From assembly GCF_008801835.1 (NCBI RefSeq), contig NZ_VZOW01000004.1, positions 62,001 to 126,000 on the forward strand: DNA of 64,000 bases. The letters run 5' to 3'. Below, piece by piece: positions 20,821 through 44,244 of this stretch. Position 1 is the stretch's first letter. Each line of letters opens with the position of its first letter. A model generated the notes under the pieces. That model was not told where the DNA came from. It ran no database searches and saw nothing but the letters and a program-made list of their open reading frames with translations. Source of the stretch: Cupriavidus pauculus. GTDB taxonomy: Bacteria; Pseudomonadota; Gammaproteobacteria; Burkholderiales; Burkholderiaceae. Made by a program: the position numbers and the translations under genes.

Positions 20821-22218
20821 CTAAGGCCGCAGCGTTTCCAGCGCCGTCTGGGCGTCGCGTCGCAAGCGCTCGATATCGAGGCCGACGACGGCGCCGTCGC
20901 GCACCACATGGCGGCCCCGCACGAAGACGTCGCGCACCGGCGTGGGCTCTCCTGCGGCCACCGGCGCCGTGGCGATGTCGTGGAAACCCGCAAAGCGCAG
21001 ACCGCTGACGTCGTAGATCGCCAGATCCGCGGACTGGCCCGGCGCCAGCGTGCCGACGCCAGGCAGCCCCAGCACCTGCGCACCGCCGGCCGTGCCCCAG
21101 TGAATCACCTCTTCGACGCGCGTCTGATCCGCGCCGCCCAGCGCGCGATGGATTAGCCACGCGAAGTTGGCCTCGTGGACCATGCTGCCCGATTCGTTCG
21201 ACGCCACGCCATCGACGCCGATCGACACCGGCACACCCGCATTGGCCATGGCGCGCACCGGCGCGATACCGCTGCCCAAACGCGCGTTGCTGACTGGGCA
21301 ATGCGCCATGCCCGTGCCGGTCTGACCGAGCATGCGGATCTCGTCGGGCGTCACGGTCACCAGATGCGCAAACCACACATCGGGCCCGAGCCAGTCGTGA
21401 TCGGCGACGAACTGTACCGGCGTGCAGCGATATTTCTCCGCGCAGAAGCGCACGTAGTTGTCGGTTTCCGACAGATGCGTATGCAGCCGCAACTGCATGC
21501 CGCGCGCAAAGCCGGCCACTTCGCGCAGCAGCGCGGGCGGCATCGAGAAGGTTGGCGTGGTGGGCGCGACCACCACGCGACGCAGCGCGTCCGCGCCGGC
21601 ATCGTGATAACGCGCCTTCAGCCGCTCGATATCGCCGAGCATTTCATCGAACGTTTCCGGCACCAGCGCGGTGGCACGCATGCCGGGATGATCGGACTTC
21701 GACTGCACCGCGCCGCCCCGGCACAGCACCAGTCGCATGCCGAATTCCTCGGCCACGTCGAACAGTACGTCGCCAGTTTCGGCACCATGTCCGTGGTGGT
21801 AGAGGTAGTGATGATCGGCACAGGTGGTGGTGCCCGACAACAGCAGCTCGGCCATGCCGAGCCGCACCGCGGTGCGGAAAATTTCGGGCGTGAAGCGGTC
21901 CAGGCGCGGATATGGCACGCTGGCCAGCCATTGCTGCAGATCGGCGTTCATGCCCGCCGGCACGGCCTTGAGCAGGTTCTGAAACAGGTGGTGGTGCGTG
22001 TTCACCCAGCCCGGGTACACCACGCAGCCTGTCGCATCGATTACGGTCTCGCCCGGTTGCGGAGCGAGGCCGGCGGCCATTTCCGCCACGCGGCCGTCGC
22101 GCACGCGCAGGTCGATCGCGCCCGCGCGCGCCGCGGCGCCGGTGCGGCCGGTCATCACGGCCGCAGCGTTGCGGATCAACAGATCGCCGGAAGCGATGGA
22201 GTGGGTAGGCGTCGTCAT
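20821..22218 (-). CDS. COG0402 amidohydrolase, 8-oxoguanine deaminase/AtzB-like
   Basis: About 465 residues with the full cyclic deaminase metal site: NTHHHLFQN (HxH), HTHLSE, the FAHLV histidine and GVDGVASNESG (catalytic Asp). The block SGTTTCADHHYLYHH is typical of the hydroxydechloroatrazine/8-oxoguanine deaminase branch of COG0402 rather than guanine deaminase. Likely hydrolytic deamination of a purine, pyrimidine or s-triazine-like ring. ATG at 22218 lies 4 bases after the NCS2 permease stop, so the two genes form an operon with the permease first. An AraC gene is divergent. The transporter supports a nucleobase-like substrate. Confidence 0.87.
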   Translation of the reverse strand: MTTPTHSIASGDLLIRNAAAVMTGRTGAAARAGAIDLRVRDGRVAEMAAGLAPQPGETVIDATGCVVYPGWVNTHHHLFQNLLKAVPAGMNADLQQWLASVPYPRLDRFTPEIFRTAVRLGMAELLLSGTTTCADHHYLYHHGHGAETGDVLFDVAEEFGMRLVLCRGGAVQSKSDHPGMRATALVPETFDEMLGDIERLKARYHDAGADALRRVVVAPTTPTFSMPPALLREVAGFARGMQLRLHTHLSETDNYVRFCAEKYRCTPVQFVADHDWLGPDVWFAHLVTVTPDEIRMLGQTGTGMAHCPVSNARLGSGIAPVRAMANAGVPVSIGVDGVASNESGSMVHEANFAWLIHRALGGADQTRVEEVIHWGTAGGAQVLGLPGVGTLAPGQSADLAIYDVSGLRFAGFHDIATAPVAAGEPTPVRDVFVRGRHVVRDGAVVGLDIERLRRDAQTALETLRP

Positions 22219-22222: not shown

Positions 22223-23575
22223 TCAGACCTCAGGTACATGTTCGCCGGCGACGGCCAGCTCGTGATCGTCGTCGCGTGTGGGCACGCCATTGAGCAGCAG
22301 ATTCAGAAATACCGACACCACGCAGGAAATGATCACGCTGCTGTGCACGAACGGCTGCAGCGCGGCTGGCAGCTTTGCCAGCAGGTTGGGCATGATTACC
22401 GGCATCAGCGCGCACGCCAGCGTGATGGCTACCACGCTCAGGTTTGCGGGCTTGCGTTCGTAATCGACCTGCCCCAGTGTGCGGATGCCTGCCGCGACCA
22501 CCACGCCGAACATCACGATGGTGGCGCCGCCCAGCGCGGCGGCGGGGATCGACGAGAACAGCGCGCCGATCTTCGGCACCAGCGCCACGGCGCACAGCAT
22601 CACGCCGCAGACCGCCACCACCCAGCGGCTGCGCACGCCGGTGACGATCACCAGCCCGACGTTCTCCATGAACGCGATGAACGGAAACGCCGCGAACATG
22701 CCGCCGATGGCACTGGCCAGGCCGTTGGCGCGCAGGCCACAGGTGGCCTCGCGTTCGCTGACGGGCCGCTTGACGATATCGCCGATGGCCACGAACAATC
22801 CCATCGATTCCACCATCTGCACCACCATCACGATCACCATGGTGACGATGGCGCCCGCGTTGAAGGTGGGCATGCCGAACGCGAACGGCATGACCATCGT
22901 GAACCACGGCGCGCGCGCCACCTCGTCGAAGCTGCCCATGCCGAGCAGCCATGCCGCCGCGCCGCCGATCATCAGGCCGATCAGCACGGCCAGGCTGCGC
23001 ACCAGCCGGCCGCCGTGGCTGTTGATGAACAGGATCAGCGCGATGGTGCCGAACGCCACTACAAAGAACAGCGGCGAGCCGAAGTCCTTCGCATTGTGGC
23101 CGCCGCCGGTCCATTGATACGCAACCGGAAACAGCGACAGCCCGACCGAAGTGATGATGCAGCCGCTGACCACGGGCGGGAAGAATCGCTTGAGCCGTCC
23201 GATGACCGGCGCCAGGAACATCGTCACCACGCCGGCGCCGATCACCGCACCGCATACGCCGGTGAATCCGAGCGACGGGTCGGAGCCGATCGCAATCACG
23301 GGTCCCACCGATCCGAACGCCACGCCCTGCATCAGCGGCAGGCGCACCCCGAACTTCCAGAAGCCGACCGTCTGCAGCAGCGTGGCGATGCCCGATGTAA
23401 ACAACGCGGTGCTGATCAGCAGCGTGGTCTGTGCAGGCGTCATCTTCAGCGCGCCGGCCACGATCATCGGCACGGCAATCGCGCCCAGATAACTTACCAG
23501 CATGTGCTGAAAACCTAGCGAGACCATCGCCCGCGCTGGCAGGATCTGGTCGACGGGATGGACGGGGGTGGTCAT
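22223..23575 (-). CDS. NCS2 family nucleobase permease (xanthine/uracil type)
   Basis: Cation symporter of about 450 residues with the NCS2 pattern of about 14 hydrophobic segments. Key motifs are GFQHMLVSY near the N-terminus (QH motif of TM1), LQTVGFWKFGVRLPLMQG, and NVGLVIVTGVRSRWV (signature NxGxxxxTG). Predicted inner-membrane uptake of a nucleobase such as xanthine, uracil or urate. It starts the operon with the COG0402 deaminase, 4 bases apart. A divergent AraC gene 186 bases away is the likely regulator. Start ATG at 23575. Confidence 0.9.
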   Translation of the reverse strand: MTTPVHPVDQILPARAMVSLGFQHMLVSYLGAIAVPMIVAGALKMTPAQTTLLISTALFTSGIATLLQTVGFWKFGVRLPLMQGVAFGSVGPVIAIGSDPSLGFTGVCGAVIGAGVVTMFLAPVIGRLKRFFPPVVSGCIITSVGLSLFPVAYQWTGGGHNAKDFGSPLFFVVAFGTIALILFINSHGGRLVRSLAVLIGLMIGGAAAWLLGMGSFDEVARAPWFTMVMPFAFGMPTFNAGAIVTMVIVMVVQMVESMGLFVAIGDIVKRPVSEREATCGLRANGLASAIGGMFAAFPFIAFMENVGLVIVTGVRSRWVVAVCGVMLCAVALVPKIGALFSSIPAAALGGATIVMFGVVVAAGIRTLGQVDYERKPANLSVVAITLACALMPVIMPNLLAKLPAALQPFVHSSVIISCVVSVFLNLLLNGVPTRDDDHELAVAGEHVPEV

Positions 23576-23761
23576 GGGGGCGCTCCTGCCTTGTGGTGTG
23601 GGTGTGCACCCAACTTAGCGACGCCGCAACCGGTCTCGTAGCAACATTGCGAATGCGCGCGCATGGAAGCGAAATGGCAGGGGTTTTCCGCAGCTTGCAC
23701 GGAATCTGCATTGATCCCTAGGATGAAGCCATTATCGCCAGTCCGCCCCTCGATCTGCACC

Positions 23762-24739
23762 ATGGGTCATCATGCTGCACCAAGATTGAACACCGCCAGC
23801 CATGCCCGTGCGCTCGATCACGTGCAGGCGCTGTCCGCGCGCGTGTTCGGTCCGACGCGCCTGCATAGCGACGACGCCCATCCGCAAGTGCAGTTGCAGA
23901 CCTGCCAGATCGGTCATCTGACGCTGGCCACCACACGCTACGACCGCGCGATGGAGGTGGTGCCGCAGCCGGGCAAGGACGAGTACGTGATCCAGACCGT
24001 GATCGCCGGCCGGTGCCGCGTGGAAATCGACGGCGTGGCCGAGGACATGGAGCCGGGCAGCACCTGGGTGTTTTCGCCGTCGCTGGCGGTGCGACTGTTG
24101 CTGGACGCCGATTGCGAACGCTTCAGCGTGGTGGTGCGCCGTCATGCGCTGGAGGATGCGTTCCGTACCTGCTTCAACTTCGATCCGCCGGGGCCGCTGG
24201 TCTTTGCGCTGCAGCCGCTCAGCGACGCGCAGCGTGCCGGCCGCTGGCGCGCGATGCTGACGTGGCTGCGCACCGAAGCCGCCATGCGTACCGGCCGCCC
24301 CGCTCTGCCGGCGGCCGACGCCGCCATCGAACAACTCTGCCTGACCACGCTGCTGGTCGATCATTTCGGCGAGGACGGCGGACTGCTGCCGCGCGGCTAC
24401 CTGCCGACGCTGCCCGCCTATGTGCGGCGCGCCATCCGCTACCTGCGCGCCAACCTGGACCAGCCGATCACGCTGCAGGAACTTGCAGCGCACTGTGGCG
24501 TCTGCGAGCGCACGTTGCAGCTGGGCTTTCGCAAAAGCAAGGACACCACGCCAATGGAGTACCTGCGCGTACTGCGCCTGCAGGGCGCCCGCGCCGACCT
24601 CCAGCGCGCGATGCCCGGCCCCGGCGTGGTCACCACCATCGCCCTGCGCCACGGCTTCACACACCTGAGCCTGTTCGCGCGCGAATACAGAAGGGAATAC
24701 GGCGAACCGCCTTCGGCTACGTTGCGCGGGGGTGGGTGA
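23762..24739 (+). CDS. AraC family regulator with N-terminal sensor domain
   Basis: About 325 residues. The N-terminal part (residues 20-170) is a cupin-like AraC-binding domain with GRCRVEIDG and WVFSPSLAVRL; the C-terminal part carries the two HTHs (LDQPITLQELAAHCGVCERTLQLGFRKSKDTTPMEYLRVLRL, then VVTTIALRHGFTHLSLFAREYRREYGEPPSATL). Divergent from the permease-deaminase operon, which it probably controls. The start is uncertain between ATG at 23723 and 23762; neither has a convincing Shine-Dalgarno. A second AraC gene follows after 32 bases. Confidence 0.87.
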   Translation: MGHHAAPRLNTASHARALDHVQALSARVFGPTRLHSDDAHPQVQLQTCQIGHLTLATTRYDRAMEVVPQPGKDEYVIQTVIAGRCRVEIDGVAEDMEPGSTWVFSPSLAVRLLLDADCERFSVVVRRHALEDAFRTCFNFDPPGPLVFALQPLSDAQRAGRWRAMLTWLRTEAAMRTGRPALPAADAAIEQLCLTTLLVDHFGEDGGLLPRGYLPTLPAYVRRAIRYLRANLDQPITLQELAAHCGVCERTLQLGFRKSKDTTPMEYLRVLRLQGARADLQRAMPGPGVVTTIALRHGFTHLSLFAREYRREYGEPPSATLRGGG

Positions 24740-25657: not shown

Positions 25658-26140
25658 CTAAGCCATGACCACGGCGTCGATCTCGATCTCGATCCACGCG
25701 CCGTCGGGGAGGCTCGCCACGCCCAATGCGCTGCGCGCGGGCAATGGTTGCTCCGGGAATGCGATGCGGAGAATTGCCGACGCCGCATCGAGCACTGCCG
25801 GATGATGGCCAAAATCCGGTGCCGCGCGGATGAATCCGCGCACACGGACAATCTGGATCACGTTTGACAGATCGTCATCGCAAGCCATCCGCAGCGCTGC
25901 CAGCGCGTTCAGCATCGACACTTCGGCGGCGCCGCGAGCCGGCTCGACATCGGCCTGGCCGCGGCACTGGCCTGCCATGGCAACGCCTTGCCGCCTGCAG
26001 ACTTGCCCGGCGATCGACACCCAGCGCGATGCGTCCGTATCCACGATGCAATACGGCGCATAGCTGCCGCGCGGACGAGACACCTCGGGCAGCGTGAATC
26101 CTGCTGCGCCAAGCAGAGCCTCGGGAGAAGCGGCCGTCAT
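25658..26140 (-). CDS. RidA/YjgF family protein (Rid)
   Basis: 160 residues, the usual size for a Rid-family protein that hydrolyses enamines/imines to keto-acids or acts on related reactive species. Core motifs seen: DAVLDAASAILRIAFPEQPLPARSALGVASLPDGAWIEIEIDAVV; the RidA-type arginine (VRVRGFIRAAP) is near 105-110 in the expected area. The start ATG at 26140 overlaps the PhzF stop in an ATGA pair, so the gene is translationally coupled and closes the Bug-PhzF-Rid operon. The coupling suggests it processes the PhzF product. Substrate unknown. Confidence 0.87.
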   Translation of the reverse strand: MTAASPEALLGAAGFTLPEVSRPRGSYAPYCIVDTDASRWVSIAGQVCRRQGVAMAGQCRGQADVEPARGAAEVSMLNALAALRMACDDDLSNVIQIVRVRGFIRAAPDFGHHPAVLDAASAILRIAFPEQPLPARSALGVASLPDGAWIEIEIDAVVMA

Positions 26141-28139: not shown

Positions 28140-28170
28140 AAAAAAGACGCAGCCGACGTGAGGCGGCTGC
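28140..28170 (-). terminator. Rho-independent terminator for the Mo-hydroxylase/UbiX/COG0523 operon
   Basis: Read on the minus strand: GCAGCCG, 8-base loop, CGGCTGC, then GTC and a run of six T. It lies 49 bases after the COG0523 gene stop and therefore closes the minus-strand operon that begins at 33590. This is one of only two hairpins in the window with a clear T-tract. Confidence 0.75.
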
Positions 28171-28218
28171 GCCGTCAATCACCCGCCAGTATCGTTGGCG
28201 GGGTCCCAGAGCTTTACG

Positions 28219-29319
28219 TCAGGCGGCGATCTGCGCGGGTTGACAGATGCGCAGCAGCGTTTGCAGGCGCGCGCGGTCCAGGTTGCGGCCGATGAAGACG
28301 AATTTGCTTTCGCGCGGCTCGTTGCCCCATGGGTCAGCGCGATGGAAATCCATCAGGCGATGCACGGCCTGCAGCACGTGACGGCATGTGTCGTCCTGCA
28401 CGGCAACGATGCCTTTCATGCGGAATACATCGTCGCCTTGCGCGGCCAGCAGCGCGCGCAGCGCGTGCTCCAGCCGCTCGCGATCGAACGGCGTGTCGAA
28501 CACCAGCGAGACCGATGTCACGGACGGATCGTGCCGATGCGCATGATCGTCGCCGCCGTGTTCGTGATTGCAGGTTTCGTCGCAGATGTGATCGGCGTGG
28601 TGGTGCGCGTCGTGGTCATGATGACCATGATGATGCGCATCGGCCGCGTCATCGGGCAGTTGCGTCGCGCCCGGCGTGAAGCCGCCAATGCCCAGGATGC
28701 GCGACAGGTCCACTTGCGCGTAGTTCGAGCGCAGGATCTGTGCGCCTTCGTTCAGGTGGTGCAGGCGATGCGTCAGCGCGTCGAGCCGCGCCTCGGACAC
28801 CAGATCTGACTTGTTCAGGATGATGCGATCGGCCGCCACGATCTGATCGACCGCCTGGTTGTCGAAGCCGGACAACTGCGGATCGTCCAGATGGGCTTCG
28901 ATATGCACGGCGTCGACCAGCGTCAGGATGCCGTCGAGCGTCACCTGTTTGGCCACGTCGTTGTCCATGAAGAATGTGGCGGCTACCGGCGTGGGATCGG
29001 CCAGCCCGCTGGTCTCCACGAGGATATGGTCGAAACGTTCAGGCCGTTCCAGCAGCTTCTGCAGGATGCGCACCAGATCGGTCCGCACATCCACCACACA
29101 GCAGATGCAGCCGTTGGTCATCTGGTAGATCTCCTCGTCCGAGGTCATCACCAGGTCCGAATCGACATCGACTTCGCCAAACTCGTTCTCGATCACGGCG
29201 ATGCGGTGGCCGTGCTTCTGCGTGAGGATGTGGTTCAGCAGCGTGGTCTTTCCTGCACCCAAAAAGCCGGTCAGGATGGTGACGGGTACGGGTGGCAGGT
29301 TGCGTTGGACTTCGGTCAT
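28219..29319 (-). CDS. COG0523/CobW-family metallochaperone GTPase
   Basis: 366 residues of the zinc/metal chaperone GTPase family. P-loop GFLGAGKTTL (18-27), the metal site GCICC (CxCC) near 70, SGLADP and NKSD follow. Residues about 225-265 are a His-rich stretch (HHHGHHDHDAHHHAD, then HICDETCNHEHGGDDHAHRHD), consistent with metal storage or sensing. The C-terminal CobW_C domain ends the protein. The start ATG at 29319 overlaps the upstream ubiX-like stop (ATGA). It is unusual to find this chaperone as the last gene of a molybdenum-hydroxylase operon; it may supply metal to the pathway's amidohydrolase or other metalloenzyme. Confidence 0.88.
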   Translation of the reverse strand: MTEVQRNLPPVPVTILTGFLGAGKTTLLNHILTQKHGHRIAVIENEFGEVDVDSDLVMTSDEEIYQMTNGCICCVVDVRTDLVRILQKLLERPERFDHILVETSGLADPTPVAATFFMDNDVAKQVTLDGILTLVDAVHIEAHLDDPQLSGFDNQAVDQIVAADRIILNKSDLVSEARLDALTHRLHHLNEGAQILRSNYAQVDLSRILGIGGFTPGATQLPDDAADAHHHGHHDHDAHHHADHICDETCNHEHGGDDHAHRHDPSVTSVSLVFDTPFDRERLEHALRALLAAQGDDVFRMKGIVAVQDDTCRHVLQAVHRLMDFHRADPWGNEPRESKFVFIGRNLDRARLQTLLRICQPAQIAA

Positions 29320-29942
29320 GGTGTCTCCCGGGTGATGACATCGGTATTGACTGCGGCAAGCGTTGTGCGCATCCCGGCCCAGCGCGAGACCAGGCCGGTG
29401 TGCGGCACGTCGAACAGATCGAGCACGCGCCCGACCGTGTGATTGACGATCTCGTCGACGCTTTGCGGATGGGTGTAGAACGCGGGCATCGGCGGCATGA
29501 CGATGGCGCCCATCTCGGTCACCGTGGTCATGTTGCGCAGATGCACCAGATGCAGCGGTGTCTCGCGCGCCAGCAGCACCAGCCGCCGGCGCTCCTTGAG
29601 CATCACGTCGGCGGTGCGCGTGATCAGGTTGTCGGCCACGCCGGTGGCGACGGCGGCCAGCGTGCGCATCGAACACGGCGCGATCACCATGCCGTCGCAG
29701 CGGAACGACCCGCTCGCAACGGCGGCGCCGATGTCGCGCACGTTGTGCACCACGTCGGCCAATGCTTCCAGTTGCGGACGCTGCATGCCCAGCTCGTGAT
29801 GCACGGTGAGCCATCCGGAAGGCGAACAGATCAGATGGGTTTGCCACTCCGGCGCCGCCTGCATGGCCTGCAGCAGGCGCACGCCGTATGCCGCGCCGCT
29901 GGCGCCGGTGACGGCCACCACGAGCCTGCGCGGGGCGTTCAT
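29316..29942 (-). CDS. ubiX: UbiX/Pad1-type flavin prenyltransferase
   Basis: About 208 residues. Makes prenylated FMN, the cofactor of UbiD-family decarboxylases. N-terminal Rossmann-like loop VAVTGASGAAYGVRLL (residues 8-23), the FMN contact IAPCSMRTLAAVATGVADNLITRTADV, and RRRLVLLARETPLHLVHLRNM are all characteristic. The ATG at 29942 overlaps the upstream Mo-subunit stop and the stop overlaps the COG0523 start. A UbiD-type gene lies at 36365-37789 in the same catabolic block, so the pair can function together. The family assignment is firm; whether it is also the respiratory UbiX of this organism cannot be told. Confidence 0.9.
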   Translation of the reverse strand: MNAPRRLVVAVTGASGAAYGVRLLQAMQAAPEWQTHLICSPSGWLTVHHELGMQRPQLEALADVVHNVRDIGAAVASGSFRCDGMVIAPCSMRTLAAVATGVADNLITRTADVMLKERRRLVLLARETPLHLVHLRNMTTVTEMGAIVMPPMPAFYTHPQSVDEIVNHTVGRVLDLFDVPHTGLVSRWAGMRTTLAAVNTDVITRETP

Positions 29943-32220
29943 GCGCGGGTCTCCGCGGCGCGTTTTTCGGCCAGCGCCTGCAGCACCTGTTCCGGCTTGA
30001 TCGGATAGTGGCGGAAACGCACGCCGATGGCGTCGAATACGGCGTTCGCGATGGCCGGCCCGATCGCCACGATCGGATCTTCGCCGACGCCCTTCGCGCC
30101 GAACGGACCGCCCGGGTCCGGCGCAGCTTCCAGCAGTACGGTGTGGATCTCGGGCATGTCCATCGCCAGCGGCATCTTGTAGTCGACGAAGTTGGCGTTC
30201 AGCGATCGCCCGGTCTTCATGTCGATCTGGTAGTCCTCGTAAAGCGTGTGGCCGATGCCCTGCTGGATGCCGCCTTCGATCTGCCCGGCCGCGGCCACCG
30301 GGTGGATCACCTTGCCGATATCGTGTACCGGCACCACCTGCTTGACCGTGATGAAGCCCGTCTCGGTATCGACCTCGACCTCCACGAAATGCGCGGCGAA
30401 CGAATACGACTTGGTCGGGTGATAGGTTGCCGTGCCCACCAGTTGCGCGGCGGGCAGTCCCTTGCGCGGCATCACGGCCTCGCGCACGGTCATGGTGGGC
30501 CCGATGCGGTCGCGCACGGCGATCACGCCGTTGGCAACTTCCAGCTGGTCGGGCTCGGCCTCCATCTGGCGCGCGGCGCGTGCCAGCAACTGCTGCTTGA
30601 TTTGCGCGGCGGCCATCTGCGCGGCGCGTCCCACCATGTAGGTGGTGTGGCTGGCAAAGGCGCCGATATCCCACGGCACCACATCGGTATCGCCATGCAC
30701 AACGCTGACCGATTCGAACGGGATCGCCAGTTCCTCGGCGACGATCTGCGCCAGCGCGGTATGTGCGCCGGTGCCCAGGCCCGCCGCGCCGGTCAGCAGC
30801 ACCACGGTGCCGTCTTCATTCATCTTGACGATGGCGTTGCCCTGCTCCTTGATGCCCGGATAGGCGCTGCTGCCGTGCATTTCGCAGCCGATGCCCCAGC
30901 CGCGGCGGATCACGCCATGCTGGGCGCGCGTCTGGGCGCGGCGCGCGTGCCAGTCCACCACTTCCATGCCCTTGGCAATGCACGCCTCGAGGCCGCGCCC
31001 GATCAGCGGATGATTCGACGGCGCGATATCGCCTTCGCGCACCGCGTTGCGCAGCTTCAGCTCGGCCGGATCGAGGCCCAGATGATGGGCCGCCTCGTCC
31101 ATCTGGATATCGAGCGCGTAGTAGGTCTGCACCACGCCGTAGCCGCGAAACGCGCCCGCGATCGGGCTATTGGTGTAGACGCAGCGACCTTCCAGCCGCA
31201 CGTTTTCGCAGCGATAGAGCGATACCATCGCCGCGGTGCCGACATTGGTGACACCGGGCCCGTGCGATCCGTAGGCGCCGGAATTGAACACCACCTTCGC
31301 TTCGCGCGCGGTGATGGTGCCGTCGTTGCGGAATCCCTGGCGCAGCCAGATGCGTGCGGGGTGGCGCGTGCGTCCGCCGAGGAAAGTTTCCTCGCGCGTG
31401 TATTCCATGCGCACCGGGCGATGGGTTTCGCGTGCCAGCAGCGCGCACAGGAATTCACCTTGAAACAGGTCCTGCTTGGCGCCGAAGCCGCCGCCCATGT
31501 GGTCCACCAGCACGCGCACCTTGTGCAGCGGCAGCCCGAGCACTTCGGCCATGATGCCGCGCACCATGAACGCCGTCTGCGTCGAGATCCAGACCGTCAG
31601 GTTGCCGTTGCCGTCCCATTTGCAGGTCAGCACGTTCGGTTCCATGTAGGCCGGCGTGGGGCGACCGCCTTCGTAGATGCCTTCGAGAATGAAGTCGGCT
31701 TCTGCAAAACCGCGGTCAATGTCGCCGCGTTCCACCACCACGGGGGGGAGCACAAGATTGCCACCCGGCTCGCGGTCGTGGATCGGCACGGCGCCGGGCG
31801 CGGCGGCGTCCTCCACGGTGAGCATCGCGGGCAGCGGCTCGTATTCGACTTCGATCAGCTCGATGGCGCGCGCGGCGATTTCCTCGCTGACGGCAGCCAC
31901 CGCAGCCACGCCTTCGCCCCAATAACGCACCTTGTCGTCGAGGAAGTACTGGTCGCAGGTGACGGAGGCCGAGCGCGGATGGGGCGATCCCGCGTGCAGC
32001 ACGCGCGGCACGTTTTCATGCGTGAGGATCGCCTTCACGCCCGGCAGCGCCAGCGCAGCCGCGGTGTCGATGCGACGAATGCGGGCATGCGCGACATTGC
32101 AGCGCTTGAGCCTGGCGTGCAGCAGGCCCGCCATCGGCATGTCGGCGACGTACTTGGCGTTGCCGGTGACCTTGTCCAGCAGGTCGGTGCGCTTGACGCT
32201 GTGTCCGATCACGGCGTGGG

Positions 32221-32224
<4 letters not shown>
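29939..32224 (-). CDS. Molybdenum hydroxylase large subunit (xanthine oxidase family)
   Basis: 761 residues, MoCo-binding subunit of a xanthine-dehydrogenase-like hydroxylase that inserts water-derived oxygen at an electrophilic ring carbon. Family signatures: GGGFGAKQD (MoCo loop), AFRGYG (position of AFRGFG), GAGLGTGAHT, and the catalytic Glu in GVGEDPIVAIGPAIANA. The CO-dehydrogenase-specific active-site Cys is absent, so it is a hydroxylase type. Start ATG at 32224 overlaps the small subunit stop by four bases. With the 2Fe-2S and FAD subunits upstream it forms a complete enzyme. Substrate likely an aromatic or N-heteroaromatic ring, inferred from neighbours. Confidence 0.9.
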
Positions 32225-32729
<505 letters not shown>

Positions 32730-32730
<1 letters not shown>

Positions 32731-33590
32731 CACAGTGTCTCCAGGGCTTGGGCAATGGCGCGGCGTGTCAGCACGCTCACCATTTCGCGGCGATAGGCGG
32801 CGCTGGCGCGCACGTCGCTGATCGGACGCGCGTCTTCCATCGCGGCGTGGGCCGCCTGGAGGACTAGCGCCTCGCTGATCGGCCGGTCGCGCAGCAGCGC
32901 TTCGGCGTGGGTGGCGCGGATCGGCGTCGGCCCTACGGCGGCCAGTACGATGCCGACATCGGTGCAGTGGCCGCGTTCGACCGTGATCGATACGGCAACA
33001 CCCACCGTTGCCAGCTCCATCTGCACGCGGCGTCCGTGCTTGATATAGGCCTTGCCCGTATGGGGCGCCGGCGCTGGGATGGTGATACGCGACACGAGTT
33101 CGTCGGGCTCCAGCGCGGTCTTGCCGGCGCCGGTGACGAAGTCTTCCACACGCATGGCGCGCGACCCCTGCAAGCCGTACAGATGCACCGACGCGCGATC
33201 GGCGATCAGCGGCGCAAGCGAATCGGCCGACGGCGACGCGCGGCACACGTTGCCCACCACCGTGGCGCGGTTGCGCACCTGTATCGACGCGAAGTCGGTG
33301 ACTGCGCGCGCCAGTCCCGCGTAATGGCGGCGTACCGCGTACGACGTTTCCACCTCGCGCGTGGTCACCAGCGCACCGATGCGCAGGCCGTCGGTGGGAT
33401 CGAACGCCAGCACGTTCATGCCCGGGATTTTCTTGATGTTGATGACGTGCGCGGGCTGCCGGTGCGATTCCTTGATCTGCACGAGCAGGTCGGTGCCGCC
33501 CGCCAGCACGCTGGCCCGACCGCCGCAACGGTGCAGCAGCGCGGATGCCTCTGCAAGCGTGGCGGGTTCGAGATATTCAAACGCTCTCAT
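32730..33590 (-). CDS. Molybdenum hydroxylase FAD-binding subunit
   Basis: 286 residues with the FAD-binding pattern AGGTDLLVQIK (residues 31-40), then IQVRNRATVVGNVCRASPSADSLAPL and the C-terminal CO_deh_flav_C domain ending AYRREMVSVLTRR. Transfers electrons from the Fe-S clusters to NAD+ or a quinone. ATG at 33590 with AGGAG upstream; first gene of the overlapping operon 33590-28219 and divergent from the LysR gene, 171 bases away. LysR control is inferred. Confidence 0.9.
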
Positions 33591-33677
33591 CGTCGCTCCT
33601 GTGTGGATGCTTGCGGCCCGTGCGCGCCATGCGTTTGCCGCTGACCGTGAAAGCATGATGGTTGCCACACCATCATC

Positions 33678-33702
33678 GGTAAATACCCATAACCGGATTT
33701 AT
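33678..33702. promoter_or_regulatory. Candidate LysR site between the LysR gene and the Mo-hydroxylase operon
   Basis: Adjacent short palindromes GGTAAATACC (33678-33687) and ATAA-N6-TTAT (33689-33702) lie in the 171-base divergent region, in an AT-rich patch. The symmetric A/T arms fit the T-N11-A style used by LysR proteins. Assignment rests on position only. Confidence 0.35.
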
Positions 33703-33761
33703 TGATCGTGTTACCCTCTGAATCGACTGCCATGACCCCCACAACAGAGCAGGCGAGAGAC

Positions 33762-34679
33762 ATGCCCACCATCAGCAACATGAACGTTTCGCTGCGGCAA
33801 TTACGCGCGTTTATCGCCGTGGCCGAAGAGCGTCACTTCACGCGCGCAGCGGAGAAATTGAGCCTTTCGCAGTCTTCCGTCAGCGCCCTGATTCACGAAC
33901 TCGAAAGCAATCTCGGACTCAAGCTGTTCGATCGCCATACGCGGCTGATGCAAATCACGCAGGCCGGCGCGGAACTGCTGCCGATGGTCAAGAAGGCGGT
34001 GGCCGATATCGACAGCGTGCTGGACAGCTCCGCGGAATTGCGCACGCTGGGGCGCGGGCGCGTGTCGATTGCCGCATCTTCGATCCAGGCCGCGCTGATG
34101 CTGCCGCGTTTCATCCGTGAGTTCTGCGTCGGCCATCCGGGCGTCAAGGTGGACCTGCACGATGTGGCCGAGGATGAAGTGCCGCGCATGGTCAGCGCTG
34201 GCGAGGTCGATTTCGGTATCGGCACGATTCCCGAGGGTCAGCCCGACCTGGCCGCGCATCGGCTGTCGTCGGATGCATTCGTGATCGTCATGCCGCCCAG
34301 CCATCCGCTGGCGCGCCGGCGCGATCTCACCTGGGAAGACGTGGCCCGCCTGCCCGTGATCGGTCCGCACCGCGGCAATCCGATCCGCGATTGCCTGGAC
34401 GCCGCGCTGGCCGCACGCGGCATCACGCTGGCGCGCGTGCACGAGGTGTTCCTGCCGCTGACGATGGTCGGCATGGTCGACGCCGGACTGGGGATCGCGG
34501 TGATGAGCACGGCGGTCACGCGGCTGACGTCGGCGCTGGGGCTGATCACGGTGATGCCGCAGGATCCGGTGATTCACCGCGAGATTTCATTGCTCACACA
34601 TGCGGACCGGTCGCTATCGCCGCCTGCGCAATCGTTCCGCGACCTGCTGATGCGCCATCGCAGCGATCTGGCGAAGTAG
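33762..34679 (+). CDS. LysR family transcriptional regulator
   Basis: About 305 residues. HTH in residues 5-65 (RQLRAFIAVAEERHFTRAAEKLSLSQSSVSALIHELESNLG, in parts), then the substrate-binding domain with IAVMSTAVT near 245. The ATG at 33762 has AGGCGAGAG just upstream; an earlier ATG at 33732 would give a longer N-terminus without precedent. It is divergent from the Mo-hydroxylase operon and converges with the NCS2 permease, so it lies at the centre of the catabolic block and probably senses its substrate or an intermediate. Confidence 0.9.
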   Translation: MPTISNMNVSLRQLRAFIAVAEERHFTRAAEKLSLSQSSVSALIHELESNLGLKLFDRHTRLMQITQAGAELLPMVKKAVADIDSVLDSSAELRTLGRGRVSIAASSIQAALMLPRFIREFCVGHPGVKVDLHDVAEDEVPRMVSAGEVDFGIGTIPEGQPDLAAHRLSSDAFVIVMPPSHPLARRRDLTWEDVARLPVIGPHRGNPIRDCLDAALAARGITLARVHEVFLPLTMVGMVDAGLGIAVMSTAVTRLTSALGLITVMPQDPVIHREISLLTHADRSLSPPAQSFRDLLMRHRSDLAK

Positions 34680-34688
34680 GCGCCGCGC

Positions 34689-34730
34689 GACGCTGCAAGC
34701 CCGGGGCATCGTCCCCGGCATGCAGGCGTC
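34689..34730. terminator. Hairpin between convergent LysR and NCS2 genes
   Basis: GACGC at 34689-34693 pairs with GCGTC at 34726-34730, and TGCA, GCC and GGGG continue the stem inward to CCCC with single-base bulges. It lies 9 bases after the LysR stop and 23 bases from the permease stop. No T-run. Confidence 0.4.
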
Positions 34731-34753
34731 ACGCAGCGGCGACGCCGGCGCGT

Positions 34754-36145
34754 CTACGCGGCTTTCTTGGCCAGCATGCGCGGCGCCTCCTGCGTGCCGC
34801 GCACGTTGAACAGCAGGTTCAGCAGCACCGCGCACAGCGTGCCGAGCAGGATGCCGTTCTGGCAGAACTTGGCCGCCAGTTCCGGCAACTGCGCGAAAAA
34901 CCTGTCGGCGACCAGCGGAATCATCCCAAGCGCCACGCTGACGGCGACGATGTAGGCGTTCTTCTTGTTCTCGACGAAATCGACGTGGCCCAGGATGCGC
35001 ACGCCGGTGGCCGCCACCATGCCGAACATCACCAGCGCGGCGCCGCCGAGCACGTATTGCGGGATCGACGCCGCAAAGAACGCCAGCTTCGGCAGGCAGC
35101 CCAACACGACCAGGATGCCGCCCGCCGTCGCGCACACCCAGCGGCTGCGCACACCGGTCACCTGCACCAGCCCAACATTCTGCGCATACGAGGTGTAGGT
35201 AAAGGTATTGAACACCGCCCCGACCAGCGCGCCGACTCCATCGGCACGCAGGCCGCGCGCCAGGTCGTCCGGCGTGACCGGCCTGTCGACGATTTCACCG
35301 AGCGCGAGAAACTGGCCCACGCCCTCGATCATGATCACGACCATCACCACGCATAGCGTGATCGACGTCATCAGGTCGAAGGTAGGCAGGCCAAAGTGGA
35401 ACGGCGTGATGAACGCCACCCAGTCGGCCGCATGCACGCCCGCGAAGGTAACCTTGCCCAGCGCCACCGCCACCACGAAGCCGGTCGCGATGCCGATCAG
35501 CACGGCGATATTGCACAGAAAGCCCTTGAAGAACGCGATCATGCACAGCACCGTCGCCAGCACCAGCGTGGCGATGCCCAGGTTCACGGGCAGGCCGTAG
35601 GCCGGATTGGGCGCCGGGCCGGTCGGCGTGGCGATGGTGGGATTGCCGCCCGCCGCCCAGTTCACGCCGACCCGCATCAGCGAGATGCCGATCACCAGCA
35701 CCACGGTTCCGGTTACCACAGGCGGAAACAAGCGGATCAGGCGGCTGACATAGGGCGCCGCCACCAACGTGAAGACGCCGGCCACCATCACCGCGCCGAA
35801 TACGGCCGGCAATCCCAGCGATGGATTCGATCCGGTGGCGATGATCGGGGCGATGGCGGTGAACGTCACGCCCATCATCACCGGCAGGCGGATGCCGATT
35901 TTCCAGATGCCGATGCTCTGGATCATCGTCACCAGTCCGCAGCAGAACAGATCCGCGGCGATCAGAAAGGCGATCTGGTCCTTGGGCAGGTGCAGCGCGC
36001 CGCCGATGATCAGCGGCACGGCGATCGCGCCCGCGTACATCACGAGCACGTGTTGCAGGCCGAGCGCGGCCAGGCGAAGCGGGGGCAAGACTTCATCGAC
36101 CGGATGCACCGGGTCGATCCCATGCGAAGTGGGGGTGGGGATCAT
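34754..36145 (-). CDS. NCS2 family nucleobase/aromatic permease
   Basis: 463 residues, about 14 predicted membrane segments. NCS2 signatures: GLQHVLVMYAGAIAVPLIIG (TM1 QH motif) and NVGLVQVTGVRSRWVCA (NxGxxxxTG). It is clearly a paralogue of the permease at 22223-23575 but not near-identical. ATG at 36145 with AAGGAG upstream; the frame upstream to 36286 is not needed. The gene lies downstream of a UbiD decarboxylase gene (219-base gap) in a run with two amidohydrolases, so the imported compound may be the pathway substrate rather than a nucleobase. Confidence 0.9.
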   Translation of the reverse strand: MIPTPTSHGIDPVHPVDEVLPPLRLAALGLQHVLVMYAGAIAVPLIIGGALHLPKDQIAFLIAADLFCCGLVTMIQSIGIWKIGIRLPVMMGVTFTAIAPIIATGSNPSLGLPAVFGAVMVAGVFTLVAAPYVSRLIRLFPPVVTGTVVLVIGISLMRVGVNWAAGGNPTIATPTGPAPNPAYGLPVNLGIATLVLATVLCMIAFFKGFLCNIAVLIGIATGFVVAVALGKVTFAGVHAADWVAFITPFHFGLPTFDLMTSITLCVVMVVIMIEGVGQFLALGEIVDRPVTPDDLARGLRADGVGALVGAVFNTFTYTSYAQNVGLVQVTGVRSRWVCATAGGILVVLGCLPKLAFFAASIPQYVLGGAALVMFGMVAATGVRILGHVDFVENKKNAYIVAVSVALGMIPLVADRFFAQLPELAAKFCQNGILLGTLCAVLLNLLFNVRGTQEAPRMLAKKAA

Positions 36146-36313
36146 GCTGTCTCCTTCGTCTTCCAGGCCGGAACTGCCCGCACGGTTGGCCGAAAGGAGG
36201 CTGCAGTTGCCGCCCCCCGTGGTCTGTCGCCACGTTTTCCGCCACCTGCGTTTCGTTGTCAGGGCAGCATGCCAGCCACCGGACATTGGGTAAATGGGGC
36301 GCGTGGATTAATC

Positions 36314-36330
36314 GATCGGGTCATCCGATC
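36314..36330. promoter_or_regulatory. Inverted repeat upstream of the NCS2 gene
   Basis: GATCGG-GTCAT-CCGATC is a perfect 6-bp inverted repeat with partial extension (AAT/ATC flanks), about 170 bases upstream of the permease start and 35 bases downstream of the UbiD stop. Possible operator or part of an internal promoter. Low certainty. Confidence 0.3.
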
Positions 36331-36364
36331 AATCGCATCCGGCGCGGATTCCGTTACATCGGCT

Positions 36365-37789
36365 TCAGTGTTTTCCCGTATCGATGCGCGCCAGCAGCGC
36401 TGCCGCGCGCGCCATGGCGTCGTCGTCGATGCGTGCGCGAATGCCATCGAAGTTCGGCCCGCGTGTGGCATCCAGGCCCATCCGCGACGTGGTGCCCACG
36501 CCCGAGGCGGACGGATCGAGCGCGCTGCCGGGCAGCCCGTCGACCACCACCACATCGAGATGGGGCTGCAGATGCGTGGCGATGGCCCACAGCACCTGCT
36601 CGTCGCGCGTGATGTCGACGTCGTGATCGACGGCCACCACGGTTTTCAGGTACGGGTCCCAGCCCAGCAGCCCCAGCATCACCTGGCGCGCCTCGCCCGG
36701 GCGCGATTGGCGCAGCGCCACGTAGGCGTGGAAATGCGTGCCGGAACTGGGATAGTGCACGGCGGTGACCGATGGAAAGCGCTCCATCAGTTTTTCCACC
36801 ATCTCCGATTCGCGCGGAATGCGGCCCAGGTTCAGATGCTCGGCCGAATTGCCGCCGACCACGTCGACCAGCCAGGCGTCGCTGCGCCGCATCACGGTTT
36901 CCACGCGCAACAGGTTGTTGGTCGAGCGGTCGGACGAATAGCCGGTGAATTCGCCAAACGGCCCTTCGTCCACGCGGGCGGTGGGATCGAGCACGCCTTC
37001 CAGCACGATCTCCGCATGTGCGGGCACCTCGATGCCGTAGCGCGGCGTGCGCACGACTTCGAGCGGCGCGCCGAACAGCCCGCTGGCGACGTGGCGCTCG
37101 TCCACGCCATACGGCAGGCGCGCCGCGCCAGCGAGCATGAACAGCGGATGCGCGCCGATCACCATCGCCACGGGCAGCGGCCTGCCTTGCTCCACGGCGC
37201 GCTGGAACATGCGCCACAGATGCCCGCGCGAATGCAGGCTGGTGGCGATCTCGTTGGGCGAATGCAGCATCGAGCGGTGATAGCTGGCATTGCCGAAGCC
37301 GAGTTCGCGATCTTCCGCGATCAGGATTGCGTTGGTGATATACGGGCCGCGATCGGTGGCGAAGTGCCGGATCGTGGGCAGTGTGCCGAGGTCGACGTGC
37401 TCCTGCACGATGCCGGTCACCGCGCCCGATTGCAGCACGCGCGGCGCCATCAGCCGGCGGCTGCGGGCCTGGTATTCGGCATGGATGCCGGCCGGCGACA
37501 CGCCGCCGAGCATACGGCCCACGCGCTCGCGCGAGGCAAACAGGTTGGTGACCAGCGGCGCGCCCAGTCCGGCCACATCGTCGAACACCACCACCGGGTG
37601 GCGATTGCGCTCGGCCAGCGTCCAGACCAGTGCGGTGGGGTCCTGGTTGGCGGTGACGGTGTCGCGCACGGTCAGCACGTCGTCGGGAAAAGCCGCGCGG
37701 TACGCGGCGAGAAAGGTATGAAAGTCCTGCGATGTATCGTCAAAGATCGGCGGGTCTAACGCCGGCAGGCTTGCAGATGGGGCAGTCAT
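36365..37789 (-). CDS. UbiD family decarboxylase
   Basis: 474 residues, prenyl-FMN dependent (de)carboxylase of aromatic or alpha,beta-unsaturated acids. Visible family landmarks: a long N-terminal domain, EDRELGFGNASYHRSML, and the conserved acid loop EGPFGEFTGYSSDR (active-site Glu pair), with the C-terminal VVAVDHDVDITRDEQVLWAIATH. ATG at 37789 with CGGAG upstream. UbiX is encoded 6.4 kb away in the divergent operon. No CoA ligase is nearby. The neighbours suggest removal of a carboxylate from a ring, but the substrate is not readable. Confidence 0.9.
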   Translation of the reverse strand: MTAPSASLPALDPPIFDDTSQDFHTFLAAYRAAFPDDVLTVRDTVTANQDPTALVWTLAERNRHPVVVFDDVAGLGAPLVTNLFASRERVGRMLGGVSPAGIHAEYQARSRRLMAPRVLQSGAVTGIVQEHVDLGTLPTIRHFATDRGPYITNAILIAEDRELGFGNASYHRSMLHSPNEIATSLHSRGHLWRMFQRAVEQGRPLPVAMVIGAHPLFMLAGAARLPYGVDERHVASGLFGAPLEVVRTPRYGIEVPAHAEIVLEGVLDPTARVDEGPFGEFTGYSSDRSTNNLLRVETVMRRSDAWLVDVVGGNSAEHLNLGRIPRESEMVEKLMERFPSVTAVHYPSSGTHFHAYVALRQSRPGEARQVMLGLLGWDPYLKTVVAVDHDVDITRDEQVLWAIATHLQPHLDVVVVDGLPGSALDPSASGVGTTSRMGLDATRGPNFDGIRARIDDDAMARAAALLARIDTGKH

Positions 37790-37956
37790 GGCATGGCTCC
37801 GCTTGGATAACGCCAACGGGATACCGTTGCCGCGCGCGGGCGCCGACAGAGAAGCCGGCGCCCGCGCGTGACCAGACGGCGAAGCATGTTGGGCGCGCAC
37901 GCGGGTGCGCGCCGCAGGGCTACGGCACGTGCGAAAGGACGTGTGCCGGGCGCGCG

Positions 37957-38871
37957 TCAGCGCGTGCTGGCGTACGTGTCCTTCAGGCGGGCCTGCGCTT
38001 CCTCCTGGGTTTTGGGCGGCGCCGTCGGCTCGATGCCGACGAGGCGGGCAATGTTGTTGCCCATGTAGTCCTCCAGGCCGTCCTCATCCAGGTCCATGCC
38101 CTGCGGGGCCGGCCCGCACAGCATCTCCAGTTCGCGCAGCCACATGCCGGGCTCGTTCGGCGGCGTATCGGTGCCGAACACGATCTTGTCGCGCGGCAGC
38201 TGACGTGCGAACTCGACGATGCGCGACTGGAAGCACCAGCCCGATTCGCAATACACGTTCGGCGTATCCATCGCCATCCAGAACGCCTCGAACGAATAGT
38301 TGCCGCCGGTCTGGATGCCGAAATGCCCGATGATGAAATTGACCATCGGGAATTCGCGGATGATCGGATAGAACATCGTCGGAATCGTGTACGGGCCGTC
38401 GCCGGTGTGGATCAGCACCACGATGTTGTACTTGGCGCAGACCTTCATCGCGGGGCGCAGCCAGTCGAGCGCTCGGTCAGGGCGATAGCCGTGCATGTTG
38501 GCATGCAGCTTGAGCATCTTGAAGCCGTATTCCTTCACATGGAATTCCAGCTCCAGCGCGCCTTCCTCCGGGCCCCAGCGCGGATTGAACGTGAAGTTGC
38601 CGATAAAGCGATCCGGGTACTTCTGGCACAGGCTGGCCACGTAGGCCATGTAGTCGCGAATGCCCTCGCGGCCGCGGCGGTTGCCGTCGCGGTAGCCGGT
38701 GTTTCCGGGCGGCGGCTGGATGAAGCCCATGTCGATGCGGCGCGGCTTGCCGTTGATCATGTAGGGGCCGTCCATCATCTTGAGCATGCGCTCGCCGTTG
38801 AACGGCTCGCCGGTATGTCGCCAGGCTTCGTCGACGAGGTTGGTGGGGTGCAGATGGGTGTCGATGATCAT
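37957..38871 (-). CDS. Amidohydrolase_2 family metal-dependent enzyme (active-site complete)
   Basis: 304 residues, TIM-barrel of the ACMSD/gamma-resorcylate decarboxylase type. The metal ligands are all visible: H6 and H8 (DTHLH), H155 (LIHTGDGPY), H183 (IIGHFGIQTGG) and D235 (FGTDTPPNEPG). Members either decarboxylate aromatic acids without redox or hydrolyse rings. ATG at 38871 with GGAG upstream. It follows the paralogue 38912-39814 on the same strand after 40 bases, and precedes ubiD (gap 167). The two proteins are clearly homologous along the whole length, for example ANMHxYRPDRALDWLRP is shared. Confidence 0.88.
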   Translation of the reverse strand: MIIDTHLHPTNLVDEAWRHTGEPFNGERMLKMMDGPYMINGKPRRIDMGFIQPPPGNTGYRDGNRRGREGIRDYMAYVASLCQKYPDRFIGNFTFNPRWGPEEGALELEFHVKEYGFKMLKLHANMHGYRPDRALDWLRPAMKVCAKYNIVVLIHTGDGPYTIPTMFYPIIREFPMVNFIIGHFGIQTGGNYSFEAFWMAMDTPNVYCESGWCFQSRIVEFARQLPRDKIVFGTDTPPNEPGMWLRELEMLCGPAPQGMDLDEDGLEDYMGNNIARLVGIEPTAPPKTQEEAQARLKDTYASTR

Positions 38872-38911
38872 GTTCGTGTGCTCCGTCGGAATCTCGTTGA
38901 ACTGCCCGCGC

Positions 38912-39814
38912 TCAGGCTGCCAGGCGCGCACGCGCTTCTTCGAGCGTGCGCGGCACCGGCGTCGGCTCCAGGCCGATCATGCGGGCGACGTTGTTGCCGA
39001 GGTAATCCTCGAGCGTGTCTTCATCGAGATTGAGGCCTTGCGGCGGTTCGAAGCACAGCACTTCCAGCAGCCGCAGCCACATGCCGGGCTCGTTGGGCGG
39101 GGTATCGGACCCGAACAGGATCTTGTGCTTGGGCAGCACCTTGGCGAACTCGACGATGCGCGACTGCAGGCACCAGCCCGATTCGCAATACACATTGGGC
39201 ATGTCCATCGCCAGCTGGAATGGCTCGAAGCAATACACGCCCCCGGTCTGCACGCCAAAGTGCGCCATGATGAAATTCACGGTCGGGAATTCCTTCATCA
39301 TCGGCACCCATTCGGTGGGAATGCTGTAGGGGCCATCGCCGGTATGGAGCTTGACCAGCACGCCAAGTTCGGCGCATTTCTGCAGCGCCGGACGCAGCCA
39401 GTCGAGCGCGCGGTCGGGACGATATGCGTGCATGTTGGCCTGGAACTGCACCATCTTGAAACCCAGGCGCTTCACATAGTGTTCGATGGCGTTGACGCCG
39501 TTTTCCACGCCGCAGCGCGGGTTGTAGACGAAGCAGCCGATAAAGCGGTCCGGATACTTCTGCACCATCTCGCGCGTGTAGGCCATGTACGCGTCGATGG
39601 CTTCGGAGCCCGATTGCACACCGTCGGTGTAGGTGTAGATCGTGTTGCCTTGCGGCGGCTGGATGAAGGCGCGGTCGATACGGCGCGGTTTGCCATTGAT
39701 GGTGAACGGGCCATCCATCATCTGGATCAGGCGTTCGCCGGTAAATGGGTCGCCGTCGTGCCGCCAGGCCAGATCGACCAGGTTGGTCGGGTAACAACTG
39801 GTGTCGATGATCAT
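38912..39814 (-). CDS. Amidohydrolase_2 paralogue lacking the HxH metal ligands
   Basis: 300 residues, same fold and length as the neighbour, but the N-terminal metal motif reads DTSCYP: S6 and Y8 replace H6 and H8. The other residues are kept: H157 (KLHTGDGPY), H185 (IMAHFGVQTGG) and D237 (FGSDTPPNEPG). The neighbour's H123 also becomes Q. It cannot bind metal in the usual way, so it may be a structural or regulatory partner of the active paralogue, or have a changed chemistry. It is the first gene of the minus-strand run (start ATG at 39814), so it is translated first and is not a decaying end copy. No frameshift is seen. Confidence 0.87.
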   Translation of the reverse strand: MIIDTSCYPTNLVDLAWRHDGDPFTGERLIQMMDGPFTINGKPRRIDRAFIQPPQGNTIYTYTDGVQSGSEAIDAYMAYTREMVQKYPDRFIGCFVYNPRCGVENGVNAIEHYVKRLGFKMVQFQANMHAYRPDRALDWLRPALQKCAELGVLVKLHTGDGPYSIPTEWVPMMKEFPTVNFIMAHFGVQTGGVYCFEPFQLAMDMPNVYCESGWCLQSRIVEFAKVLPKHKILFGSDTPPNEPGMWLRLLEVLCFEPPQGLNLDEDTLEDYLGNNVARMIGLEPTPVPRTLEEARARLAA

Positions 39815-39913: not shown

Positions 39914-40118
39914 AGCAATCTCCAGATGAACCTCGCGGCATTGCGCCGCTGCTGTTCAATCGACCGCTTCTACCCACGCGTTCGTTATATAGCGCCGTGT
40001 TTGCGCGCGTCAAGCGCGACTTGTGGTGCGGTGCACGAATATCGTTAGGCGAAATCATTCGTTCGGCGCGCGCCCGCACGTTCCTAGCATGATCGTCTTC
40101 CCAATCTCCGGTACAGGA

Positions 40119-42095: not shown

Positions 42096-42103
42096 GGCAG
42101 GCC

Positions 42104-44153: not shown

Positions 44154-44244
44154 CCACTTTGGGGCGACGTAAACCAGGGATGTCAGGGGCATTCAGCCAT
44201 ATGCGCGCGGATGCCACCCATTGAAAAAGAAGGGAACAATAAAC

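Follow-up and report, generated by a model that had tools for sequence, protein, structure and literature searches.

We analyzed a 64,000-nucleotide window of Cupriavidus pauculus DNA (contig NZ_VZOW01000004.1, positions 62,001 to 126,000) and, within it, a catabolic gene cluster that includes a UbiD-family decarboxylase dependent on prenylated flavin mononucleotide (prFMN) and two paralogous amidohydrolases, AHa and AHb (table 1). The source genome measures 6.4 Mb and, judged by UbiD, its closest named relatives are Cupriavidus. At 28219-39814 an earlier reading of the letters alone (the sequence-only reading) had named a three-subunit molybdenum (Mo) hydroxylase, UbiX, a COG0523 GTPase (CobW), LysR, an NCS2 permease, UbiD, and two amidohydrolase_2 genes; all are present, nine of the ten on the minus strand and LysR alone on the plus strand. 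Their grouping into one catabolic block stands, yet its limits were drawn too narrowly: the deaminase AH1 and a second permease, NCS2b (20821-23575), had been omitted and are also members of the unit. The gene set probably degrades pterins to an ordinary purine.

The flavin adenine dinucleotide (FAD), iron-sulfur, and molybdopterin subunit genes of the Mo hydroxylase run into UbiX and CobW, with four joins that overlap by 1, 4, 4, and 4 bases; thus, these five genes very probably form a single operon. AHa, AHb, UbiD, and NCS2a lie in succession, with gaps of 40, 167, and 219 bases, and are separated from the Mo operon by the LysR gene, whose position is conserved in Cupriavidus relatives. The terminator-like hairpin after CobW is weak evidence, since the scan gave 11 such sites against 10.4 expected by chance; promoter and terminator pattern counts were not above chance, and a search for transfer RNA genes found none.

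Table 1. Genes and Other Features of the Cluster, with Positions in the Window
Feature	Position	Strand	Assignment and remarks
AHa	38912..39814	-	Amidohydro_2 paralogue, Pfam PF04909; HxH metal motif replaced by IDTSCYP
AHb	37957..38871	-	Amidohydro_2 (Pfam), HxH, H, H, D sites intact; ACMSD-type TIM barrel
UbiD-family prFMN decarboxylase	36365..37789	-	Pfam + TIGR00148
NCS2a permease, xanthine-permease subfamily	34754..36145	-	TIGR03173 538.8 bits, cut-off 414
LysR regulator	33702..34679	+	Pfam; divergent from Mo operon; start codon uncertain
Mo hydroxylase FAD subunit	32730..33590	-	PF00941, PF03450
Mo hydroxylase [2Fe-2S] subunit	32221..32730	-	PF00111, PF01799
Mo hydroxylase molybdopterin subunit, XdhA-like	29939..32224	-	PF01315, PF02738, PF20256
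UbiX flavin prenyltransferase	29316..29942	-	PF02441; 4-base overlap at each side
COG0523/CobW GTPase, probable metal chaperone	28219..29319	-	PF02492, PF07683
Terminator-like hairpin + T run after CobW	28146..28173	-	Pattern match only
AraC-type regulator	23663..24739	+	PF12833
NCS2b permease, xanthine-permease subfamily	22223..23575	-	TIGR03173 463.9 bits, cut-off 414
AH1, COG0402 deaminase, PRK12393 family	20821..22218	-	Supported clade with 2PAJ

Gene Linkage across Relatives

With UbiD as query over species genomes, 210 relatives were found, and the best 80 of the 210 loci were analyzed with a 10-kb flank; 52 of the 80 reach 21 kb or more. Genes were scored as present under a loose tblastn criterion (E<=1e-8, 28% identity, 40% of the query), and loci were divided, according to record title, into an actinobacterial type (27, including L073 from an unclassified bacterium) and others (53). 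UbiD, as the query, is found in all 80 loci; 75 carry AHb, 65 CobW, 55 a Mo hydroxylase, 51 AHa, 50 NCS2, 48 UbiX, and 38 a COG0402 deaminase, which falls outside the 10-kb flank in most loci from Cupriavidus. All 37 long nonactinobacterial loci carry AHa, AHb, and CobW, with UbiX and the Mo enzyme in 31 each, NCS2 in 29, and the deaminase in 21. The 15 long actinobacterial-type loci hold AHb in 14, the Mo enzyme and CobW in 11 each, NCS2 in 10, the deaminase in 9, and UbiX in 6. Since the set recurs in relatives, chance assembly is excluded. In 62 of the 80 loci UbiD comes after AHb at less than 400 bp, with no change of strand, and the two lie close together in reduced clusters as well; AHa-AHb-UbiD is uninterrupted in 51. 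This tight order fits consecutive steps and, AHb and UbiD being the closest gene pair, the AHa/AHb product probably feeds UbiD. Loci of the C. gilardii type (L017, L019, L020, L027) show the order AHa-AHb-UbiD-UbiX-CobW-AraC-NCS2b-AH1, and those of the Paraburkholderia type (L036-L038, L040, L041) the same order without AraC. The S. meliloti (Sinorhizobium) 1021 replicon pSymB also carries the cluster, and many soil bacteria share the gene set as a unit. Outside taxa with such loci the amidohydrolase is seldom seen, occurring in 3 of 160 genomes of an order sample and 3 of 249 of a phylum sample (own genome counted in both).

At the family level, AHb (E<=1e-100) occurs in 65 of 299 genomes and AH1 homologues (E<=1e-90) in 143. 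AH1 at 65% identity or more is found in 64 genomes (two by partial matches), 63 of which hold AHb; that is, in 63/65 genomes with AHb versus 1/234 without (Fisher p 3e-61, related genomes not being independent; matches were listed down to about E 3e-92, such that short fragments may escape). On single contigs, all 58 AH1-AHb pairs lie at 5.4-17.1 kb, and five further pairs are split over contigs. AH1 at that identity is lacking in two AHb genomes, G287 (720 contigs) and G378. In the lone genome where AH1 comes without a full AHb, G239, decayed pieces of AH1, NCS2b, and AHb adjoin one another (L095:5444-6539). The deaminase, amidohydrolase, UbiD/UbiX, and COG0523 genes are firmly linked. A further class of AH1 homologues, at 41-44% identity, is also present in family genomes.

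This linkage bears on the substrate, which the sequence-only reading had taken to be an imported ring carboxylate. Import of a simple N-heteroaromatic carboxylate, such as one of the picolinate type, and its breakdown by hydroxylation, decarboxylation, and opening of the ring would agree in general terms with the gene families, but would leave no role for a deaminase found in 63 of 65 AHb genomes, nor for the cytosine-deaminase-like substitute described below. In addition, no ring-cleavage dioxygenase, monooxygenase, or CoA ligase family was recognized in the 20 open reading frames (ORFs) scanned at 20.8-43.1 kb, a subset of those lying there. We consider such a substrate improbable; given the deaminase, the imported compound is more likely an aminated bicyclic ring, that is, a pterin, with the carboxylate probably arising inside the pathway. 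N-heteroaromatic chemistry, NCS2 uptake, Mo hydroxylation, and UbiD decarboxylation were, in our judgment, rightly called, and the earlier interpretation is overall partly supported.

The AraC gene lies 50-300 bases from CobW in 13/13 relatives where both were found, whereas the gap here is 3480. An overlapping trio coding for a TctC receptor, a PhzF-like isomerase, and a RidA-like protein (25658-27979) lies between the two genes. These were rejected as cluster parts because of that difference in spacing and because no PhzF or RidA above 40% identity over more than 100 residues occurs in the analyzed relatives' loci.

Deaminase and Amidohydrolase Pair

AH1 scores 464.6 bits to PDB 2paj versus 297.3 to 3hpa (51% identity over 465 aligned residues and 41%, respectively), and passes the PRK12393 cut-off (787.6 bits vs. 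543). In a FastTree phylogeny of 49 sequences, 2PAJ and AH1 fall in one clade (34 members, support 0.987), apart from the 8-oxoguanine deaminases; at 169 diagnostic columns, AH1 agrees with 2PAJ at 71 and with 8-oxoguanine deaminases at 33. The sister group of 2PAJ consists of cluster-linked deaminases from other genera (L013, L015, L024 type; support 0.998 for the L013 type), so that 2PAJ is bracketed by cluster members; a node inside the window's own group has a support of only 0.121. AH1 is not, however, an orthologue of 2PAJ, which groups with L087, L088, and L090 (83-86% identity). At L088:8547-13675 and L087:5694-9814, genes for an NMT1-type ABC transporter, a Rieske oxygenase, and a deaminase lie together, possibly as another heterocycle pathway. 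We take 2PAJ to be an isoxanthopterin deaminase and presumably one of the Sargasso Sea amidohydrolases, and it was reportedly described as the former by Hall and coworkers in 2010; its PDB record reads putative cytosine/guanine deaminase. On the strength of this kinship, we propose that AH1 is a pterin/7-oxopterin deaminase. Sargasso Sea amidohydrolases deaminate isoxanthopterin and pterin-6-carboxylate, according to PMC5270733; Hall et al. 2010 is cited there and in PMC11121863.

A guanine-like ring would also suit AH1 in a 7-deazapurine scheme, where UbiD would act on 7-carboxy-7-deazaguanine, AH1 would deaminate, the Mo enzyme hydroxylate, and the amidohydrolases open the ring. The pyrrole-3-carboxylate chemistry involved resembles that of AnInD, presumably an indole-3-carboxylate enzyme. 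Yet AH1 falls short of the guanine-deaminase cut-off (132 vs. 375 bits), and no deazapurine-related gene was seen among the sampled and scanned neighbors; we regard this scheme as very improbable.

The deaminase slot is filled differently elsewhere. A third, more distant COG0402 enzyme occurs in 14/27 actinobacterial-type loci, and a CodA-like (cytosine-deaminase-like) amidohydrolase takes the position on Sinorhizobium pSymB and Paracoccus plasmids. Plasmid counts of the CodA-like enzyme and AHb, compared by organism tallies and listed rows rather than record by record, coincide in Sinorhizobium (63/63), Ensifer (11/11), Shinella (2/2), Ochrobactrum (1/1), and Ponticoccus (1/1), but differ in Paracoccus (6/5) and Aminobacter (3/0); eight betaproteobacterial AHb plasmid records are absent from the matches of the CodA-like enzyme. 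As described in PMC9513972, the Variovorax F1 pterin deaminase is 37% identical to Arad3529 and near predicted cytosine and creatine amidases, and by that description the alphaproteobacterial slot enzyme is similarly cytosine-deaminase-like.

AHa and AHb of the window share 66% identity. The THxHP motif is kept in 79/79 AHb sequences longer than 250 residues, whereas SCYP replaces the HxH motif in 57/57 AHa sequences (two 225-residue matches of 24% identity, L005 and L006, are left out of these counts). AHa is restricted to loci that also carry AHb: it occurs in 51/53 nonactinobacterial loci, the two exceptions having AHb at a contig edge, and in 0/27 actinobacterial-type loci, 22 of which have AHb, so that AHb alone seems sufficient in some hosts. 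As judged from these motifs, AHa appears to be an invariant, pseudo-enzyme-like paralogue of AHb, apparently kept as a conserved partner and not a copy in decay, and the two may form one heteromer; the sequence-only reading had treated them as separate ring-processing enzymes, a view we do not retain. A predicted model of AHb (mcd698a0b8f20; mean pLDDT, a local confidence score, 80.5; pTM, a global one, 0.85) finds its best Foldseek matches in ACMSD, LigW, and LigJ, at 15-19% identity, with 12-19% across the 50 matches listed and no specific match among them. Thus, AHb shares its fold and metal-site motifs, including HxH, with ACMSD/LigW/LigJ/IDCase amidohydrolase_2 enzymes but differs in identity (at most 19% among those 50) and in the HxH-less partner found in proteobacteria. 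The pair forms a very highly conserved, functionally uncharacterized family.

The distribution of the pair also bears on the strongest rival, a hydrolytic purine route resembling that of clostridial xanthinase. Here, the amidohydrolases would open xanthine to 4-ureido- and then 4-amino-5-imidazolecarboxylate, UbiD would decarboxylate the latter, and AH1 would deaminate an aminoimidazole or guanine. Both NCS2 genes exceed the xanthine-permease cut-off, the Mo subunit is XdhA-like, and the intermediate is again a five-membered heteroaromatic carboxylate, like the substrates of UbiD's relatives. The route is known in Clostridia and Bacilli and likewise joins an XDH-like enzyme, amidohydrolases, and decarboxylation of an imidazole carboxylate (PMC3519856 and PMC12507026). 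It requires two hydrolases, however, and AHa lacks HxH and is missing from every actinobacterial-type locus (0/27, with AHb in 22); the 20 ORFs scanned at 20.8-43.1 kb included no recognizable separate imidazolonase-like gene; and AH1 is kin to bicyclic-ring deaminases, its 2PAJ kinship being left unexplained. The present hosts also differ from those of the clostridial pathway in being mostly of aerobic type. We hold the hydrolytic route to be unlikely.

A Candidate Route from Pterins to Xanthine

UbiD carries the UbiD domains and the Arg and Glu motifs and has a UbiX partner gene; the motifs NxSxHR and EGPFGE, whose Arg and Glu residues are presumably catalytic, are kept in 86/86 near-full-length homologues above 50% identity. 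Its closest solved relatives are 6h6x and 6h6v (228 and 226 bits), which we take to be furan-2,5-dicarboxylate enzymes, and AnInD (141 bits), presumably the indole-3-carboxylate enzyme; these nearest relatives would thus act on five-membered heteroaromatic carboxylates. Xanthine-8-carboxylate is an imidazole-2-carboxylate, and we propose it as the substrate of UbiD. The same gene set could instead serve pterin-6-carboxylate or lumazine-6-carboxylate catabolism, with UbiD acting first and AHa/AHb then opening the decarboxylated oxolumazine; pterin-6-carboxylate is a reported substrate of the deaminase group (PMC5270733). Against this order speak the five-membered rings presumably used by UbiD's solved relatives and the close AHb-UbiD pairing in 62/80 loci and in reduced clusters, which fits consecutive steps without fixing their order; we consider it rather unlikely.

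The Mo enzyme differs from XdhABC in falling below both the XdhA (676.8 vs. 780 bits) and XdhB (217.5 vs. 310 bits) equivalog cut-offs; among solved structures, its Mo subunit best matches 4-hydroxybenzoyl-CoA reductase. GxGE is kept in 29/29 Mo-subunit homologues above 50% identity, and motifs of this subunit gave no distinction between purine and other substrates. Lumazine is hydroxylated to violapterin by a known enzyme, xanthine oxidase (PMC9966888). Paraburkholderia/Caballeronia-type loci carry a different, two-subunit Mo hydroxylase beside the cluster or its AH1 (L085:9279-11942, with a twin-arginine-like leader; L094:13168-15894; L100:5909-8577). ZnuA-like and ABC-3 zinc-type transporter genes lie near UbiD in eight Acidimicrobiia-type loci (e.g., L066:12714-13538, L056:1519-2406) and, together with the COG0523 gene, suggest zinc as the amidohydrolase metal.

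Thus, we suggest the following route, its substrates and order of steps being deduced throughout. Pteridines would be imported by the NCS2 carriers, or by a BMP-type ABC transporter in relatives. AH1 would strip the 2-amino group, turning, for example, isoxanthopterin into 7-oxylumazine, and the Mo hydroxylase would oxidize the pyrazine ring to 2,4,6,7-tetraoxypteridine. AHa/AHb, as a metal enzyme perhaps served by the COG0523 GTPase, would then open the dioxopyrazine ring and reclose it as an imidazole, giving xanthine-8-carboxylate; we propose AHb with AHa as this tetraoxypteridine isomerase. UbiD, with prFMN from UbiX, would decarboxylate the product to xanthine, which would pass into normal purine catabolism. 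The steps assigned to AHa/AHb and UbiD are suggested by gene order, chemistry, and relatives. This route uses most of the linked genes in a sensible order. The enzymatic conversion of tetraoxypteridine to xanthine-8-carboxylate is that of tetrahydroxypteridine cycloisomerase, EC 5.5.1.3, and McNutt and Damle reportedly worked on tetraoxypteridine. A 2007 survey counted EC 5.5.1.3 among orphan activities (PMC1940265).

Several observations weigh against this proposal. The closest 2PAJ relatives reside in a separate Rieske/NMT1-ABC operon (L088 by scan, L087 by gene sizes), so the test-tube activity of 2PAJ may not be that of the cluster. A second class of AH1 homologues (50-55%) occurs in genomes both with and without AHb, the deaminases of actinobacterial-type loci are not 2PAJ-like, and some clusters have no linked deaminase, the G378 genome lacking any AH1 match at E<=1e-90. 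The linked Mo enzyme is missing from 6 of 37 full nonactinobacterial loci, and the NCS2 genes are equally compatible with plain purine uptake. Structural neighbors of AHb are decarboxylases, hydratases, and hydrolases, none of them, to our knowledge, a ring-contracting isomerase; no assay of AHa, AHb, or the cluster's UbiD and Mo enzyme is known to us, and the biochemical pterin-to-xanthine route enters here as general background. An Amdase/EutA-like gene in 12/80 loci has no role in the scheme. PF09349 (urate pathway), found in 65/65 AHb genomes versus 157/234 others, is universal among the 41 genomes sampled from the window's own genus, of which 23 hold AHb and 18 do not; as a test for a xanthine product it was dropped as nondiscriminating, and we do not count it as support. 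All considered, we give a cluster for catabolism of oxidized pterins or lumazines with ring contraction to xanthine a probability of about 0.4; pterin catabolism taken broadly, with the order in which UbiD acts first counted in, seems slightly better than an even bet. That AHa/AHb is the missing cycloisomerase (a metal amidohydrolase and pseudo-enzyme heteromer), UbiD the first prFMN purine decarboxylase, and the cluster the first genetic pterin-to-xanthine contraction pathway is a more tentative proposal, and one we would rather doubt than assert.

Neighboring Genes and Significance

The Amdase/EutA-like gene, of the Asp/Glu racemase fold, is seen in or near the cluster (e.g., L085:21829-22617, L046:9082-9904); two such genes scanned fall far under both NCBIfam cut-offs. 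In the window, sulfatase, sulfatase-modifying factor (FGE), and NlpA lipoprotein genes adjoin the cluster at 40023-44009, and a sulfatase also lies beside AHa in L003. A FliD-like flagellar cap gene and then a VgrG-type gene (type VI secretion system) follow at 44221-48637, and an ADP-forming acyl-CoA synthetase-like gene is found at 16293-18731, beside other acyl-CoA genes.

The hmf cluster for furoate and furan-2,5-dicarboxylate comprises HmfABCDE, with HmfF/G as its UbiD/UbiX. Both systems combine a three-subunit Mo hydroxylase with UbiD/UbiX, and HmfF, which we take to be 6h6v, is the nearest solved UbiD. Yet hmf includes a furoyl-CoA synthetase, whereas no CoA ligase appeared among the 20 ORFs scanned here, and the deaminase, NCS2 carriers, and AHa/AHb pair are particular to the present set, in line with the distinction from hmf already drawn by the sequence-only reading. 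Its expectation of an undocumented combination also holds in the literature searched by name and gene combination, where, in the parts of the sources covered, we found no documented pathway with exactly this gene set and no description of the cluster, of a complete bacterial gene set for pterin breakdown, or of the amidohydrolase subfamily; for the pSymB genes, a search by locus tag gave no more than a table mention. Every enzyme belongs to a known superfamily, and the set and the amidohydrolase subfamily are apparently undescribed.

Overall, our findings offer specific candidate genes for the EC 5.5.1.3 activity, a reaction with a biochemical record alone and an orphan in 2007. They also bring out an amidohydrolase subfamily whose conserved partner looks inactive, and UbiD may here act on a new class of substrate. 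Pterins are widespread, as parts of folate and molybdopterin and as insect and vertebrate pigments; if the proposed route is true, pigment and folate pterins would feed into purine catabolism.

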